From NCBI RefSeq assembly GCF_000384115.1, contig NZ_KB913029.1:4501057-4565056 (forward strand): DNA of 64,000 nucleotides. Direction: 5' to 3'. Source of the DNA: Sporichthya polymorpha DSM 43042 (GTDB taxonomy: Bacteria; Actinomycetota; Actinomycetes; Sporichthyales; Sporichthyaceae). Both the position numbers and the translations under genes were made by a program. Under the pieces are notes generated by a model. That model saw nothing but the letters and a program-made list of their open reading frames with translations, was not told the origin of the DNA and ran no database searches. This document shows, piece after piece, positions 46,094-51,678 of this stretch. Position 1 is the first letter of the stretch. Every line of letters starts with the position of its first letter.

Positions 46094-46719
46094 TCCTGCT
46101 CACTCGCGATCGCATTGACGGCGGCGACGGCCATCGCGGACCCGCCGCGCCGGCCGTGCACGACGAGGTACTCCAGGCCGAGCGTGTTCTCCGCGAGCGC
46201 GACCTTCGACTCGGCGGCACCGATGAATCCGACGGGCAGGCCGAGGACCGCGGCGGGGCGGGGCCCGCCGTCGGCGATCAGCTCCAGCAGGCGGAACAGC
46301 GCGGTCGGAGCGTTGCCGATCGCGACGACCGCGCCCTCGACGCGGTCCCAGAGGTCGAGCGCCGCGGCGGAGCGAGTGTTGCCGATCCGCTGCGCGAGCT
46401 CGGGGACGCCGGACGCGTTGAGCGTGCAGCGGATCTCGTTGTCCGCGGGCAGCCGCTTGCGGGTGATGCCGGAGGCGACCATCTCGGCGTCGCAGTAGAT
46501 CGGGGCACCGGCGAGCAGTGCCTCCCGGGCCGCCTGAACCGCGTTCGGGGAGAACGCGAGGTCCTCGACCAGGTCGGTCATCCCGCAGGAGTGGATCATC
46601 CGCACCGCGACGCGGGCGACGTCCGTCGGCAGGTGGTCCAGCCGCGCCTCGGCCCGGATCGTCGCGAACGAGCGCCGGTAGATCTCGGCCCCGTCGCGGA
46701 TGTAGTCGAGTTCGGTCAT
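46090..46719 (-). CDS. cobH: Precorrin-8X methylmutase CobH
   Basis: A 209-residue enzyme that moves the C-11 methyl to C-12, giving hydrogenobyrinate. Family features: [40 protein letters not shown] (catalytic His), [65 protein letters not shown]. The ATG at 46719 overlaps the cobG stop (ATGA). All catalytic elements appear intact. Confidence 0.95.
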
Positions 46720-47789
46720 GCCTGCCTCTCGGTGTGCAGCCCGAAGGCCGCGAGTGCGGCGGTCACGGTACCCACCGACTCCGGCTCCAGGTTCGGCAGC
46801 ACCACACCCCGCCAAGGCGTGACCCGCAGGCCGACCGACCCGCCTTTTGGCTGGGCCTGGTGCTGCTGGGCCTGGTGCTGCTGGGCCTGGTGCGGCTGGG
46901 TCTGGTGCTGCTGGGCCTGGTCGGCGAGGGCCCGGAACGCGGCGGCGGTCAGCCGGCCGTCCCCGGCGTCGAGGACGAGGGCCGTCCGCCCGTCGGTCTG
47001 GCGGTACTCCCCCGGCTCCAGCGGCCGCGCTCCGCTCATGCATGAGCAGGGTGTCGATTTTCGGGCGTCCGGTGTCCGAATTTCGACCACCCGCTCATGC
47101 ATGAGCGAATCGTCGAGGCGGGCGGCGACGCGGGCGGGCCCGTCGGCGAGCTCGGCGAGGCGCCACGCGGGTGAGTGCTGGGCGGCCCGCTCGGCGAGGA
47201 AGGCCCGGGCGGCGGCGAGGGCGAGCTCGGCCGGGGCCGTCGTCAGGCCCACCTTCGCGCCGCCGAGGCGCACGACGAACCCGTCGGGGACGGCGCTGGG
47301 AACGGAGTGGAGCGCGACGTCGGCGTCGAGCCCGGAGACGTCGAGGCTGCCGTCGTCGATCGCGAACAGGAACCGGCCCGGCAGGGCGGCCAGGTGCGGG
47401 TCGTCGCACAGCCCGTCGTCGAGGGCGGTGACGATCGGCCCGACGTCCGGCCGCTCGCGCAGGCCGGTCAGCGGCGACGCGACGATGTTGCGGACTCGGT
47501 CGTGGGTGTCGCTCGGGAGCAGCCCGGCGTTCCGCAACCGGGGCGCCAGGGCATGCTCACCGGACGGCTGCAGCCCTCTGATCTGCACGTTCGCGCGGGA
47601 GGTCAGCTCCAGAACGCCGCTGCCGAGCTCCTCCGCCGCGGCCGCGAGCACCCGCGCCTGCTCGACCGAGAGTCGCCCCCCGGGAACCCGGACCCGCGCC
47701 AGCCCCCCGTCCGCCGCCGACCACACCGACCGGACCCCGGGGCAGGCGTCGGGGCCCTCCCGGCGGACGGACGACTTCTCGGACGGCAC
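46716..47789 (-). CDS. cobG: Precorrin-3B synthase-like protein CobG, with repeat insertions
   Basis: A 357-residue nitrite/sulfite-reductase-like protein expected to make precorrin-3B. The core matches actinobacterial Cob[63 protein letters not shown] and [20 protein letters not shown] do not see the paired cysteines usual for the [4Fe-4S]-sirohaem fold. Two segments look inserted: residues ~229-252 (encoded by palindromes at 47034-47106) and a QHQAQ repeat near 290-313. GTG 47789 follows a TACGAT -10 closely, so the transcript may be leaderless. It diverges from cobN across the riboswitch region. Confidence 0.85.
46850..46921. repeat. 15-bp tandem repeat in cobG encoding Gln/His-rich segment
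   Basis: Units like CTGGGCCTGGTGCTG repeat about five times. On the minus strand they encode QAQQH units ([18 protein letters not shown]). One unit differs (QTQPH). Confidence 0.85.
47034..47106. repeat. Inverted-repeat element inserted in cobG
   Basis: The perfect 14-bp palindrome GCTCATGCATGAGC occurs at 47034-47047 and again at 47093-47106. Inside these, GTCGATTTTCGG and CCGAATTTCGAC pair as a larger imperfect hairpin. The stretch is markedly less GC-rich than its surroundings and keeps the cobG frame open ([19 protein letters not shown]). Confidence 0.8.
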
Positions 47790-47844
47790 CCGGCGATCGT
47801 ACGAGCGGGCCGCAGCGGCGGACGGACCGCCGGTGGCCGTGTGC

Positions 47845-47975
47845 GAGAGTGGACGGCAATCGCGACGACCAGCGGAGGAAGCCGGTGCAAGCCCGGCGCC
47901 GTCCCGCGACTGTGACCGGAGACGCTTCCGCGGAAGCGTTCCCGGGAGCCAGACACTCCCGTCGTCGCCGACGCC
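47845..47975 (+). promoter_or_regulatory. Cobalamin (B12) riboswitch upstream of cobN
   Basis: The conserved core is easily read: GGAAGCCGGTGCAAGCCCGG (47878 on), then CGCCGTCCCGCGACTGTGAC (the B12-box C-GCCACTG-like part) and, after a variable arm, GAGCCAGACACTCCC. This is the AdoCbl-riboswitch layout on the plus strand, ending about 40 nt before the cobN start. Bound cobalamin should lower cobN expression. The variable arm carries the 20-nt palindrome at 47921-47940. The exact 5' end is uncertain. Confidence 0.92.
47921..47940. repeat. Copy 2 of the 20-nt palindrome, inside the riboswitch
   Basis: GACGCTTCCGCGGAAGCGTT is identical to 11194-11213. Here it forms a hairpin in the riboswitch's variable arm, between the ACTGTGACCGG core and the GCCAGACAC segment. 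Confidence 0.75.
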
Positions 47976-48012
47976 GGCCCGGGGCGCGGACCCCGAGGGA
48001 GGAAGTACGACC

Positions 48013-51000
48013 GTGGCGACCCACCTGCTGCTGTCCACCTCGGACACCGACCTGCTCTCGGCTCGGTCCTCCGGGGCGGAGTACCGGCTCGCGAACCCCT
48101 CCCGGATCGAGGTCGCCGACCTGCCCGGGCTGCTCGACGGGATCGACCTGGTCGTCGTCCGGATCCTCGGCGGCTACCGCGACTGGCAGGACGGCATCGA
48201 CGCCCTGCGCGCCGACGGGCGGCCGCTGATCGTCCTCGGTGGCGAGTCGCTGCCCGACGCCGACCTGATGGCGCTCTCGACGGTCCCGGCCGGCGTCGCG
48301 GCCCAGGCGCACGCCTACCTCGCCCACGGCGGCCCGGCGAACCTCGCCGAGCTCCACGCGTTCCTCTCCGACACCGTCCTGCTCACCGGCGAGGGTTTCG
48401 CTCCCCCGGCGGAGCTCCCCGACTGGGGCCACCTGGACCGCCCCCGGTCCCCCGAAAGCGCACATCCGTACGCCGATTCCGCCGAAAGCGCGTACGGATC
48501 TGCGCTTTCGGAGGGAGCGGGGGGGCGGCCCGGGGGGCGACCGCGGATCGGGATCCTCTACTACCGGGCGCACCACGTCGCGGGGAACACCGCGTTCGTC
48601 GAGGCGCTCAGCCAGGCGGTCGAAGCCCACGGGGCGACGGCGATGCCCATGTACTGCTCCTCGCTGCGGGTGCCGGACCCCGGTCTGCTCGAGCAGCTTG
48701 CGACGGCGGACGCGCTCGTCGTCACGGTTCTCGCCGCGGGCGGGCGCCGCCCGGCCGACGCGAGCGCCGGTGGTGACGACGAGGCCTGGGACGTGCAGGC
48801 CCTCGCCGCGCTCGACATCCCGATCCTGCAGGGGCTGTGCCTGACGTCCTCCCGGAAGACCTGGGCGGCCTCGGACGACGGCCTGTCCCCACTCGACACC
48901 GCCACCCAGGTCGCGGTCCCGGAGTTCGACGGCCGCCTCATCACCGTGCCGTTCTCCTTCAAGGAGATCGATGCGGACGGGCTGCCCGTCTACGTCCCGG
49001 ACCCGGAGCGGTGCTCCCGCGTCGCCGGCATCGCCGTGCGGCACGCTCGGCTGCGGCACATCCCGGCCGCGGAGAAGAAGCTCGCGCTGATGCTCAGCGC
49101 CTATCCGACCAAGCACGCCCGCATCGGCAACGCCGTCGGCCTCGACACCCCGGCCAGCGTGCTCGAGCTGCTGCACGCCCTCCGCGACGCCGGTTACCAG
49201 GTCGGCGACCTCCCCGGCCTCGAGGCGCGTGACGGCGACGCCCTCATGCACGCCCTGATCGCGGCCGGCGGCCAGGACCCCGACTGGCTGACGGATGCTC
49301 AGCTCGCCGCGAACCCGGTCCGCATCCCCGGCGCGGTGTACGCGGAGTGGTTCGCCACCCTGCCGGCCGAGCTCCGCGATGCGGTGGAGGAGCACTGGGG
49401 CCCGGCGCCGGGCTCGTTGTTCGTCGACAACGGCGACATCGTGCTCGCGGCGATGGTCGCGGGCAACGTCGTGCTGATGGTCCAGCCCCCGCGCGGGTTC
49501 GGCGAGAACCCGGTCGCGATCTACCACGACCCGGACCTCCCGCCGAGCCACCACTACCTCGCGGCGTACCACTGGCTCGGCGGCCAGGATGACGCCTGCT
49601 TCGGCGCGGACGCGATGGTCCACGTCGGAAAGCACGGCAATCTCGAATGGCTGCCGGGCAAGACGGCGGCGATGTCAGCCGCCTGCGCCACCGACGCCGC
49701 GATCGGCGACCTACCCCTCATCTACCCGTTCCTCGTCAACGACCCGGGCGAGGGGACGCAGGCCAAGCGCCGGGCCCACGCGACGCTGGTCGACCACCTC
49801 GTCCCGCCGATGGCGCGCGCCGAGACCTACGGCGACATCACGCGCCTGGAGCAGCTGCTCGACGAGCACTCGAACATCGCGGCCATGGACCCGGCCAAGC
49901 TGCCCGCGATCCGCGCCCAGATCTGGACGCTGATCCAGGCCGCGAAACTCGACCACGACCTCGGGCTCTCCGACCGTCCCCACGACGCCGAGTTCGACGA
50001 CTTCCTGCTCCACGTGGACGGCTGGCTCTGCGAGATCAAGGACGTCCAGATCCGCGACGGCCTCCACGTCCTCGGGCAGGTGCCGAGCGGCGAGGCCCGC
50101 ATCGACCTGATCCTCGCCATGCTGAGGGCACGTCAGATGTGGGGTGGCCAGGTCGCCGCCCTTCCCGGCCTCCGGGAGGCACTCGGCCTCCCCGAGGACG
50201 GCTCCGCGACCCGCGAGCAGACCGACGCGATCGAGGCCACCGCCCGCGCCCTCGTCGCCGCGATGGACGCCGCCGGCTGGGACCCCGCCGCCGCCGCGAC
50301 CGTCACCGACGACAGCCGAGTGGCGGAGATCCTGCGGTTCGCGGCGACGGAGATCGTGCCGCGGCTGGAACGGACCACCGACGAGATCGGGCACGTCCTG
50401 CACGCGCTCGACGGCGGGTACGTGCCGGCCGGGCCGAGCGGGTCGCCACTGCGCGGGCTGATCAACGTCCTCCCGACCGGGCGCAACTTCTACTCGGTCG
50501 ACCCGAAGGCGGTGCCCTCCCGCCTCGCCTACGCGACCGGTGCCTCGATGGCCGACTCCCTGCTCGAGCGGTACCGCCGCGAGAACGGCGAGTGGCCGCG
50601 CTCGGTCGGGCTCTCGGTGTGGGGCACCTCGGCGATGCGGACCTCCGGGGACGACATCGGCGAGGTCCTCGCCCTGCTCGGCGTGCGCCCCGTCTGGGAC
50701 GAGGCCTCGCGCCGGGTCACCGGGCTGGAGGCGATCCCGCTCGACGAGCTGACGCTGAACGGCGAGCGGCGGCCCCGCGTCGACGTGACGGTCCGCATCT
50801 CGGGCTTCTTCCGCGATGCCTTCCCGCACGTGGTCGCGATGCTGGACGACGCCGTCGCCCTCGTCGCCGGGCTCGACGAGGGTCCCGAGGACAACTACGT
50901 CCGCGCCCACGTCGACGACGACCTCGCGACCCACGGCGACCGGCGCCGCGCCACGCTGCGCGTCTTCGGTTCCAAGCCCGGTGCGTACGGCGCGGGCCTG

Positions 51001-51678
51001 CTCCCCCTCATCGACTCCCGCAACTGGCGCGACGACGCCGACCTCGCGGAGGTCTACGCAGTCTGGGGCGGTTACGCCTACGGCCGCGACCTCGACGGCC
51101 TGCCCGCCCGCCCGGACATGGAGACGGCCTACAAGCGCATCGCGGTCGCGGCGAAGAACGTCGACACCCGCGAGCACGACATCGCCGACTCCGACGACTA
51201 CTTCCAGTACCACGGCGGCATGGTCGCGACCGTGCGCGCCCTGACGGGCAAGGCCCCAGCCGCGTACATCGGCGACTCCACCAACCCGGACGCGGTGCGC
51301 ACCCGCACCCTCTCCGAGGAGACGGCCCGCATCTTCCGCGCCCGCGTGGTCAACCCGCGCTGGATCGCCGCGATGCGCCGCCACGGCTACAAGGGCGCGT
51401 TCGAACTCGCCGCCACCGTCGACTACCTCTTCGGCTACGACGCCACCGCCGGCGTCGTCGAGGACTGGATGTACGAGAAACTGACGGAGAGTTACGTCCT
51501 CGACCCGGAGCAGCGGAAGTTCTTCGCCGAGTCGAACCCTTGGGCCCTCCACGGCATCACCGAGCGACTGCTCGAGGCGGCCGACCGCGGGCTCTGGGAG
51601 AACCCCGACCCGGAGACGATGGCGGGCCTGCGGCAGGCCTACCTGGAGACCGAGGGCGACCTCGAAGCGGGAACCTGA
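48013..51678 (+). CDS. cobN: Cobaltochelatase subunit CobN
   Basis: A 1221-residue large subunit of the ATP-dependent cobalt chelatase of the aerobic pathway. Family segments: HLLLSTSDTDLLSARSSGAE, IGILYYRAHHVAGNTAFVEA, LTSSRKTWAASDDGLSPLDT, ALMLSAYPTKHARIGNAVGL, VHVGKHGNLEWLPGKTAAMS, LINVLPTGRNFYSVDPKAVP, GLSVWGTSAMRTSGDDIGEV, and YFQYHGGMVATVRALTGKAP. GTG 48013 follows a GGGAGGAAG site. Residues ~146-176 contain an extra Ser/Glu/Gly-rich stretch encoded by a near-perfect inverted repeat. CobS/CobT or ChlI/ChlD partners are not in the window. It is under riboswitch control. Confidence 0.95.
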   Translation: MATHLLLSTSDTDLLSARSSGAEYRLANPSRIEVADLPGLLDGIDLVVVRILGGYRDWQDGIDALRADGRPLIVLGGESLPDADLMALSTVPAGVAAQAHAYLAHGGPANLAELHAFLSDTVLLTGEGFAPPAELPDWGHLDRPRSPESAHPYADSAESAYGSALSEGAGGRPGGRPRIGILYYRAHHVAGNTAFVEALSQAVEAHGATAMPMYCSSLRVPDPGLLEQLATADALVVTVLAAGGRRPADASAGGDDEAWDVQALAALDIPILQGLCLTSSRKTWAASDDGLSPLDTATQVAVPEFDGRLITVPFSFKEIDADGLPVYVPDPERCSRVAGIAVRHARLRHIPAAEKKLALMLSAYPTKHARIGNAVGLDTPASVLELLHALRDAGYQVGDLPGLEARDGDALMHALIAAGGQDPDWLTDAQLAANPVRIPGAVYAEWFATLPAELRDAVEEHWGPAPGSLFVDNGDIVLAAMVAGNVVLMVQPPRGFGENPVAIYHDPDLPPSHHYLAAYHWLGGQDDACFGADAMVHVGKHGNLEWLPGKTAAMSAACATDAAIGDLPLIYPFLVNDPGEGTQAKRRAHATLVDHLVPPMARAETYGDITRLEQLLDEHSNIAAMDPAKLPAIRAQIWTLIQAAKLDHDLGLSDRPHDAEFDDFLLHVDGWLCEIKDVQIRDGLHVLGQVPSGEARIDLILAMLRARQMWGGQVAALPGLREALGLPEDGSATREQTDAIEATARALVAAMDAAGWDPAAAATVTDDSRVAEILRFAATEIVPRLERTTDEIGHVLHALDGGYVPAGPSGSPLRGLINVLPTGRNFYSVDPKAVPSRLAYATGASMADSLLERYRRENGEWPRSVGLSVWGTSAMRTSGDDIGEVLALLGVRPVWDEASRRVTGLEAIPLDELTLNGERRPRVDVTVRISGFFRDAFPHVVAMLDDAVALVAGLDEGPEDNYVRAHVDDDLATHGDRRRATLRVFGSKPGAYGAGLLPLIDSRNWRDDADLAEVYAVWGGYAYGRDLDGLPARPDMETAYKRIAVAAKNVDTREHDIADSDDYFQYHGGMVATVRALTGKAPAAYIGDSTNPDAVRTRTLSEETARIFRARVVNPRWIAAMRRHGYKGAFELAATVDYLFGYDATAGVVEDWMYEKLTESYVLDPEQRKFFAESNPWALHGITERLLEAADRGLWENPDPETMAGLRQAYLETEGDLEAGT
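48452..48511. repeat. Inverted-repeat element inserted in cobN
   Basis: Two 22-base arms (48452-48473 and 48490-48511), starting CCGAAAGCGCA and ending TGCGCTTTCGG, pair with one mismatch around a 16-nt loop. The decamer CCGAAAGCGC appears at 48452 and 48482 and inverted at 48502. It is read through in frame (PESAHPYADSAESAYGSALS). Confidence 0.85.

Follow-up and report, generated by a model that had tools for sequence, protein, structure and literature searches.

A dispersed family of palindromic elements in Sporichthya polymorpha, with one copy in frame in cobG

The best-known in-frame palindromic repeats are those of Rickettsia and the REPs of some other bacteria; the case described here is actinobacterial. 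The Rickettsia elements (RPEs) are short palindromic repeats dispersed in the genome, and some of them are fused in frame to unrelated genes. According to PMC10969869, RPEs are about 150 bp long, fall into ten families and have nearly half of their copies in ORFs. The same paper describes MITEs such as ERIC, NEMIS/Correia and RUP as non-autonomous elements of 50-500 bp with terminal inverted repeats, which form hairpins and are sometimes fused in frame to genes. REPs are paired palindromes that are mostly intergenic; some lie within genes, and there dimers or groups code for 20 to 30 residues. The CGTC REPs are without a dedicated transposase (PMC3733652). In REPINs a spacer separates two conserved palindromes of inverted orientation (PMC3116915).

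The element described here lies at 47034..47106 of a 64-kb stretch of the Sporichthya polymorpha genome (the window, G000 C1:4501057-4565056; the genome, G000, is one contig of 5.50 Mb). It is one 73-bp unit of what we call family I and has no assigned strand. Two copies of the 14-bp palindrome P (GCTCATGCATGAGC, with the 12-mer core CTCATGCATGAG) stand at 47034..47047 (P1) and 47093..47106 (P2), spaced 59 bp apart. Between them is an inner inverted repeat with the left arm GTCGATTTTCGG (47053..47064) and the right arm CCGAATTTCGAC (47076..47087). A sequence-only reading of this stretch had described two identical 14-bp palindromes around an inner inverted repeat, and both palindromes are indeed exact. 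The two ends of this element are the only exact matches to P in the window; at up to three mismatches there are 7 matches, against 2.23 expected, a number reached in 0/100 shuffles. The element strand is predicted to fold into a single long hairpin, both as DNA (z = -9.29) and as RNA (z = -9.15), with 0/200 shuffles as good in either case.

The genome search that the same reading had proposed turned up further copies. The 5.5-Mb genome contains 29 occurrences of the P core and none of the reversed control, and all 29 fall at 15 sites; diverged units were recovered by BLASTN with an 81-bp query segment. Both P are recognisable in 16 units, spaced 59 bp in 13 and 60 bp in three; at some sites, two or three P follow one another in tandem. 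These are short elements with complementary terminal arms in multiple dispersed copies, as in MITEs. We aligned the 13 units of 59 bp together with the unit at 580490 (alignment A1, three 60-bp units left out) and built a profile model, R1, from these 14. Most of P and the GTCGA / TCGAC box, which lies in the left and right inner arms respectively, are invariant across the alignment, and P is nearly identical among these paralogues though their inner parts differ. Covariation of the bases flanking P between G000 and a second Sporichthya genome, G002, is weak (position 4, local arms, 0/500 shuffles; position 5, outer arms, 17/500), and no other flanking position stood out. Over all six frames, the inner part is stop-free in 16/16 units of G000 (5.5 expected from dinucleotide shuffles) and in 19/20 units of G002 (10.0 expected), the units being related in both cases. 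A substitution test on this property gave 2 observed against 6.7 expected, and in the third Sporichthya genome, G001, 1/3 units are stop-free.

A composition-based gene guess combined with Pfam, a heuristic, places 13 of the 15 G000 sites in apparently intergenic DNA; at L045, L050 and L054 the ORF picked by the guess overlaps the element, and its recognised domain starts farther on. By this guess the copies occupy convergent, tandem, divergent and coding positions, and the same kind of guess put none of the 14 sites of G001 or the 17 sites of G003, a sister-genus genome, in a containing ORF. Besides cobG, the element is in frame in a 277-aa ORF after flhA, which has a weak FlhF match (33.5 bits, cut-off 174.15). 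The G002 counterpart, 249 aa long, is also open across the element, and searches of G001, G003 and G004 gave no match to the ORF. Between G000 and G002, substitutions at codon positions 1/2/3 number 1/0/4 over the 26 element codons, 3/5/8 before the element and 27/23/44 after it, the counts outside the element indicating a loosely constrained sequence. After the element, 37 codons are nonsynonymous and 26 synonymous, and this ORF is a weak candidate for a real gene. In-frame placement in unrelated protein genes, as in RPEs, is thus seen in cobG and the flhF-like ORF in two species, with a weak gene call for the latter. Exactly one frame per strand is open in 11/16 G000 units, the cobG copy included; two others have two open frames on one strand, and the three 60-bp units have two on each. 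The 30 ORFs scanned in the neighbourhood of copies included no transposase domain. Some unannotated neighbours were considered as transposases and rejected: two ORFs of 323-324 aa beside copies are mutually dissimilar, one of them having only a sub-threshold AbiEi-like match, and a 608-aa ORF is DivIVA-like.

The host ORF in the window is a precorrin-3B synthase-like cobG (46716..48047, minus strand). Its true start is uncertain, and homology to other CobGs begins near 47756. The ORF has an NIR_SIR_ferr domain and scores 172.3 bits against TIGR02435, under the 234.8 cut-off. Its neighbours are a cobI-cobJ fusion, cobH and cobN, with an Rfam cobalamin riboswitch match between cobG and cobN. The minus-strand frame is open across the element as 26 residues, and CobG-like sequence resumes in frame beyond it. 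The CobG of G002, 93% identical to that of G000, carries the same element at the same position and in frame. The element is absent from the CobGs of G003 and G004. Among 98 genomes of the class, 22 CobG loci were found at E <= 1e-40: two carry the element (G000 and G002), 19 are without it, and that of G001 stops at a contig edge just before the site. The element is thus absent in 19/19 CobGs outside Sporichthya that cover the site, and conservation across genera was not seen.

The sequence-only reading had counted about 24 extra residues not expected in CobG. The segment is in frame and foreign to CobGs outside the genus, as claimed, but it lies in a hypervariable linker that is only 7 and 9 aa longer on balance than in the two nearest other genomes. 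Between the two CobG halves, this linker measures 51 aa in G000 and G002 and 42 and 44 aa in the G003 and G004 proteins, with a range of 25-60 aa across 21 sequences (alignment A2), so that the insert occupies a stretch that varies naturally. Residues 225-230 are encoded by P1 and residues 245-250 by P2. In the AlphaFold model of the G000 protein (mean pLDDT 86.2), residues 236-249 fall below 50; the blocks 231-240 and 241-250 have values of 56 and 43, against 91 before and 88 after. The model suggests that the element probably forms a floppy protein linker. Its 26 codons differ between G000 and G002 by 1/0/2 substitutions at positions 1/2/3.

Three other features of this cobG were observed. 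Over 46716-47780, substitutions between G000 and G002 show a relaxed codon-position pattern downstream of the element in the reading frame (8/5/7) and not before it (10/6/33). A 15-bp tandem repeat at 46850-46924 codes for QHQAQ-like residues and differs in length between the two species. The protein ends before the cysteine motif C.G..GC in 4/4 Sporichthyaceae sequences that reach the C-terminus, and 16/17 other class members aligned have the motif, which makes the catalytic state of the Sporichthyaceae CobG doubtful.

G001 and G002 belong to the same genus as G000, and G003 and G004 to a sister genus within the Sporichthyaceae. The P core is present in 10/60 genomes, with 29 occurrences in G000, 17 and 36 in the same-genus pair, one in G003 and one in each of six others. 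At E <= 1e-4, R1 matched 4/197 genomes of the class (G000, G001, G002 and G003), all Sporichthyaceae; on G004 it gave nothing at E <= 0.1. The G003 matches are weak (best 36 bits). They fall at 17 places, in nine of which they span 127-128 bp, and they have GCTCATTCATGAGC / GCTCATGAATGAGC at their ends and additional nested arms. Since GCTCATTCATGAGC is close to P, we take these copies as a related form, judged by their ends and layout and not by score. A P-pattern scan of genome contigs returned 22 stretches, three of them from Sporichthya sp. MGR_bin378; R1 was run on all 22, and 10 of the 19 non-Sporichthya stretches were read individually. The three Sporichthya loci scored 51-71 bits, three Corallococcus loci 31-35, one Pseudoxanthomonas locus up to 36 and one Thermoanaerobaculia locus up to 23, the remaining stretches giving nothing at E <= 0.1. 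Outside the class R1 was scored only on loci chosen by the P pattern, and these are preselected for two P-like 12-mers, so that scores around 30 bits carry little weight. The stretches from Corallococcus and Pseudoxanthomonas appear to be direct or tandem repeats, and we take them as look-alikes, a distant kinship being conceivable. The three Corallococcus contigs (L163:4170-4255, L169:4149-4234, L172:4191-4275) have repeated ACTCATGCATGAGT palindromes in a direct-repeat layout. Nothing matched in phages and plasmids, searched with one 201-bp query, or in viral contigs, scanned with one pattern.

Family I is a dispersed family. It occupies the same in-frame cobG site in two Sporichthya species, and none of the CobGs examined from outside the genus has it. 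In our judgement the cobG segment is probably one copy of a palindromic repeat of the non-autonomous, MITE/REP-like kind, built as P-inner-P with a P spacing of 59 or 60 bp, so far found in Sporichthyaceae and tolerated here in frame. In the common ancestor of both species, a copy would have inserted into the linker that joins the two ferredoxin-like halves of CobG and tolerates changes in length, in the one frame per strand that the 59-bp cobG unit leaves open, and may since then have been translated as a flexible loop. A trans-acting enzyme with the terminal palindromes or the hairpin as its substrate would have spread the family. The number of units at a site, which is seen to change, may then have been altered by slippage between P repeats. 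There is one P at 1482840 in G000 against three in G002, and there are two units at 2453762 in G000 against one in G002.

The positions of the element are mostly fixed, and movement is therefore hardly seen: for 14 of the 15 G000 sites, the corresponding G002 locus contains the element as well. At site 4071798, G000 has the element and G002 lacks it, which could reflect loss in G002 rather than insertion in G000; the flanks have diverged and a target-site duplication is not readable there. No clean target-site duplication was found at any filled/missing site compared. Also against the mobile-repeat reading, neither a mobilising enzyme nor an autonomous partner turned up: Y1_Tnp had no match in 5/5 genomes, and the 30 ORFs scanned near copies showed no transposase domain. 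The reverse case is the G002 site C11:31744, which holds an element where G000 has none. The G000 counterpart of this site (L151:11556-12120) contains a two-gene toxin-antitoxin-like insert (PemK_toxin, 88.6 bits; RHH_1, ribbon-helix-helix, 22.6 bits).

The strongest rival to the mobile-repeat reading is that P is maintained by the host, as a candidate sequence-specific binding site or processed hairpin that purifying selection preserves at each locus, regardless of its mobile origin. Its main argument is the divergence of P between G000 and G002. In a count of aligned bases (13 of the 15 G000 sites submitted, 12 anchored, the element in a gap at one), P differs at 8/364 positions (2.2%), a figure from sites chosen by an intact P core in G000, which hides changes on the G000 lineage up to about twofold. 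The inner part differs at 75/616 (12.2%), the 30 bp on either side of the element at 177/626 (28.3%), which loose flank alignment may inflate, and the rest of the aligned windows at 1197/13467 (8.9%). A nearest-match count over 14 units, which favours similarity, gave 6/392 for P, 8/140 for the boxes, 28/353 for the other inner positions and 61/280 for the two 5-bp flanks of each P. Despite these biases, P looks constrained, or kept alike by another process. It diverges far less between species than expected of a decaying MITE, and this counts against the mobile-element reading. The near-identity of P among paralogues and its closeness to GCTCATTCATGAGC of the sister genus point the same way. 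Against host maintenance, the G001 comparison (three sites tried; P 7/56, inner part 51/114) is small and less clear, G004 has no match, and the scanned neighbour genes, in varied orientations at the sites, form no evident regulon. We regard host maintenance as possible, at somewhat less than even chances, and it fits with a mobile origin too. The stricter form is rather unlikely: purifying selection would preserve P at almost all loci, those in ORFs among them, and a function at the nucleic-acid level would thereby dictate part of the CobG and FlhF-like sequences. If P is such a site, a Sporichthyaceae protein that recognises it would be its putative partner. That P is conserved at fixed sites raises the question of whether the repeats are still parasites or now serve the host.

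Family I could also be a set of terminators or mRNA-stabilising hairpins that reached cobG by accident. The RNA hairpin is very stable and several copies follow stop codons (e.g., L047, L048 and L051). However, others lie between divergent genes or inside ORFs, a T-run of at least 4 within 20 nt outside an end occurs in just 1/16 G000 units, and neither of the two Rfam matches over 14 loci is on a copy. We consider this explanation improbable. Still less probable, and largely refuted, is the reading of family I as a REPIN mobilised by a RAYT (REP-associated tyrosine transposase). Paired conserved palindromes around a short inner part in dispersed copies do match the REPIN anatomy as given in PMC3116915, but the Y1_Tnp profile had no match in 5/5 genomes, the same search being positive in 5/14 control genomes, and GTAG in either orientation occurs in 1/16 G000 units. 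An insertion specific to CobG, under selection at the protein level and merely repetitive-looking, would suit the long and variable CobG linkers but is refuted by the same unit or core at 14 other sites, 13 of them apparently intergenic, and by the translation of the two P of cobG in different frames; we give it next to no credence.

A second palindromic element, unrelated to the first, lies in frame in the neighbouring cobN (48013..51678, plus strand, read from GTG 48013; Pfam CobN-Mg_chel, 1322.8 bits). This family II element (48452..48511, no assigned strand) is a hairpin of the form CCGAAAGCGCACATCCGTACGC ... GCGTACGGATCTGCGCTTTCGG. Family II has copies at 8 places in G000 at E <= 0.0014, cobN included, and at E <= 0.01 has matches in G001, G002 and G003 and none in G004. 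The cobN of G002 is without the element and, over the same stretch, is 78 bp (26 codons) shorter than that of G000. Two unrelated palindromic families thus occupy neighbouring B12 genes, one common to sister species and the other in one only, which makes the tolerance of such inserts directly testable. If the P-site reading is true, more than one palindromic family, I in cobG and II in cobN, decorates the genes of G000.

The type of element to which family I belongs is already known, and among the open-licence PMC papers listed by the searches none describes such an element from Sporichthya. The sequence-only reading had likened it to the coding-region elements of Rickettsia, and the likeness holds as far as a repeated palindromic element in frame in a protein gene; it does not extend to a chiefly coding-region habit, since only 2/15 sites are in ORFs open in two species. 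By analogy, family I may work like the Rickettsia elements, compared here by description, with a unit of 73 bp against about 150 bp. It shares the paired-palindrome layout of REPINs, with a RAYT found in 0/5 genomes. Family I resembles MITEs in being short and hairpin-forming, with terminal inverted repeats and copies in frame in genes, and differs in that no parent IS and no target-site duplication were found. Each end is also itself a palindrome, so that P is both a direct and an inverted repeat, unlike MITE ends. CGTC or its complement is found in 10/16 G000 units, at no constant place beside P, and is common by chance in GC-rich DNA. The GTAG tag of REPs is missing in 15/16 units. As in REPs, the palindromes are paired and lie mostly between genes, and family I adds an inner part with conserved boxes of its own.
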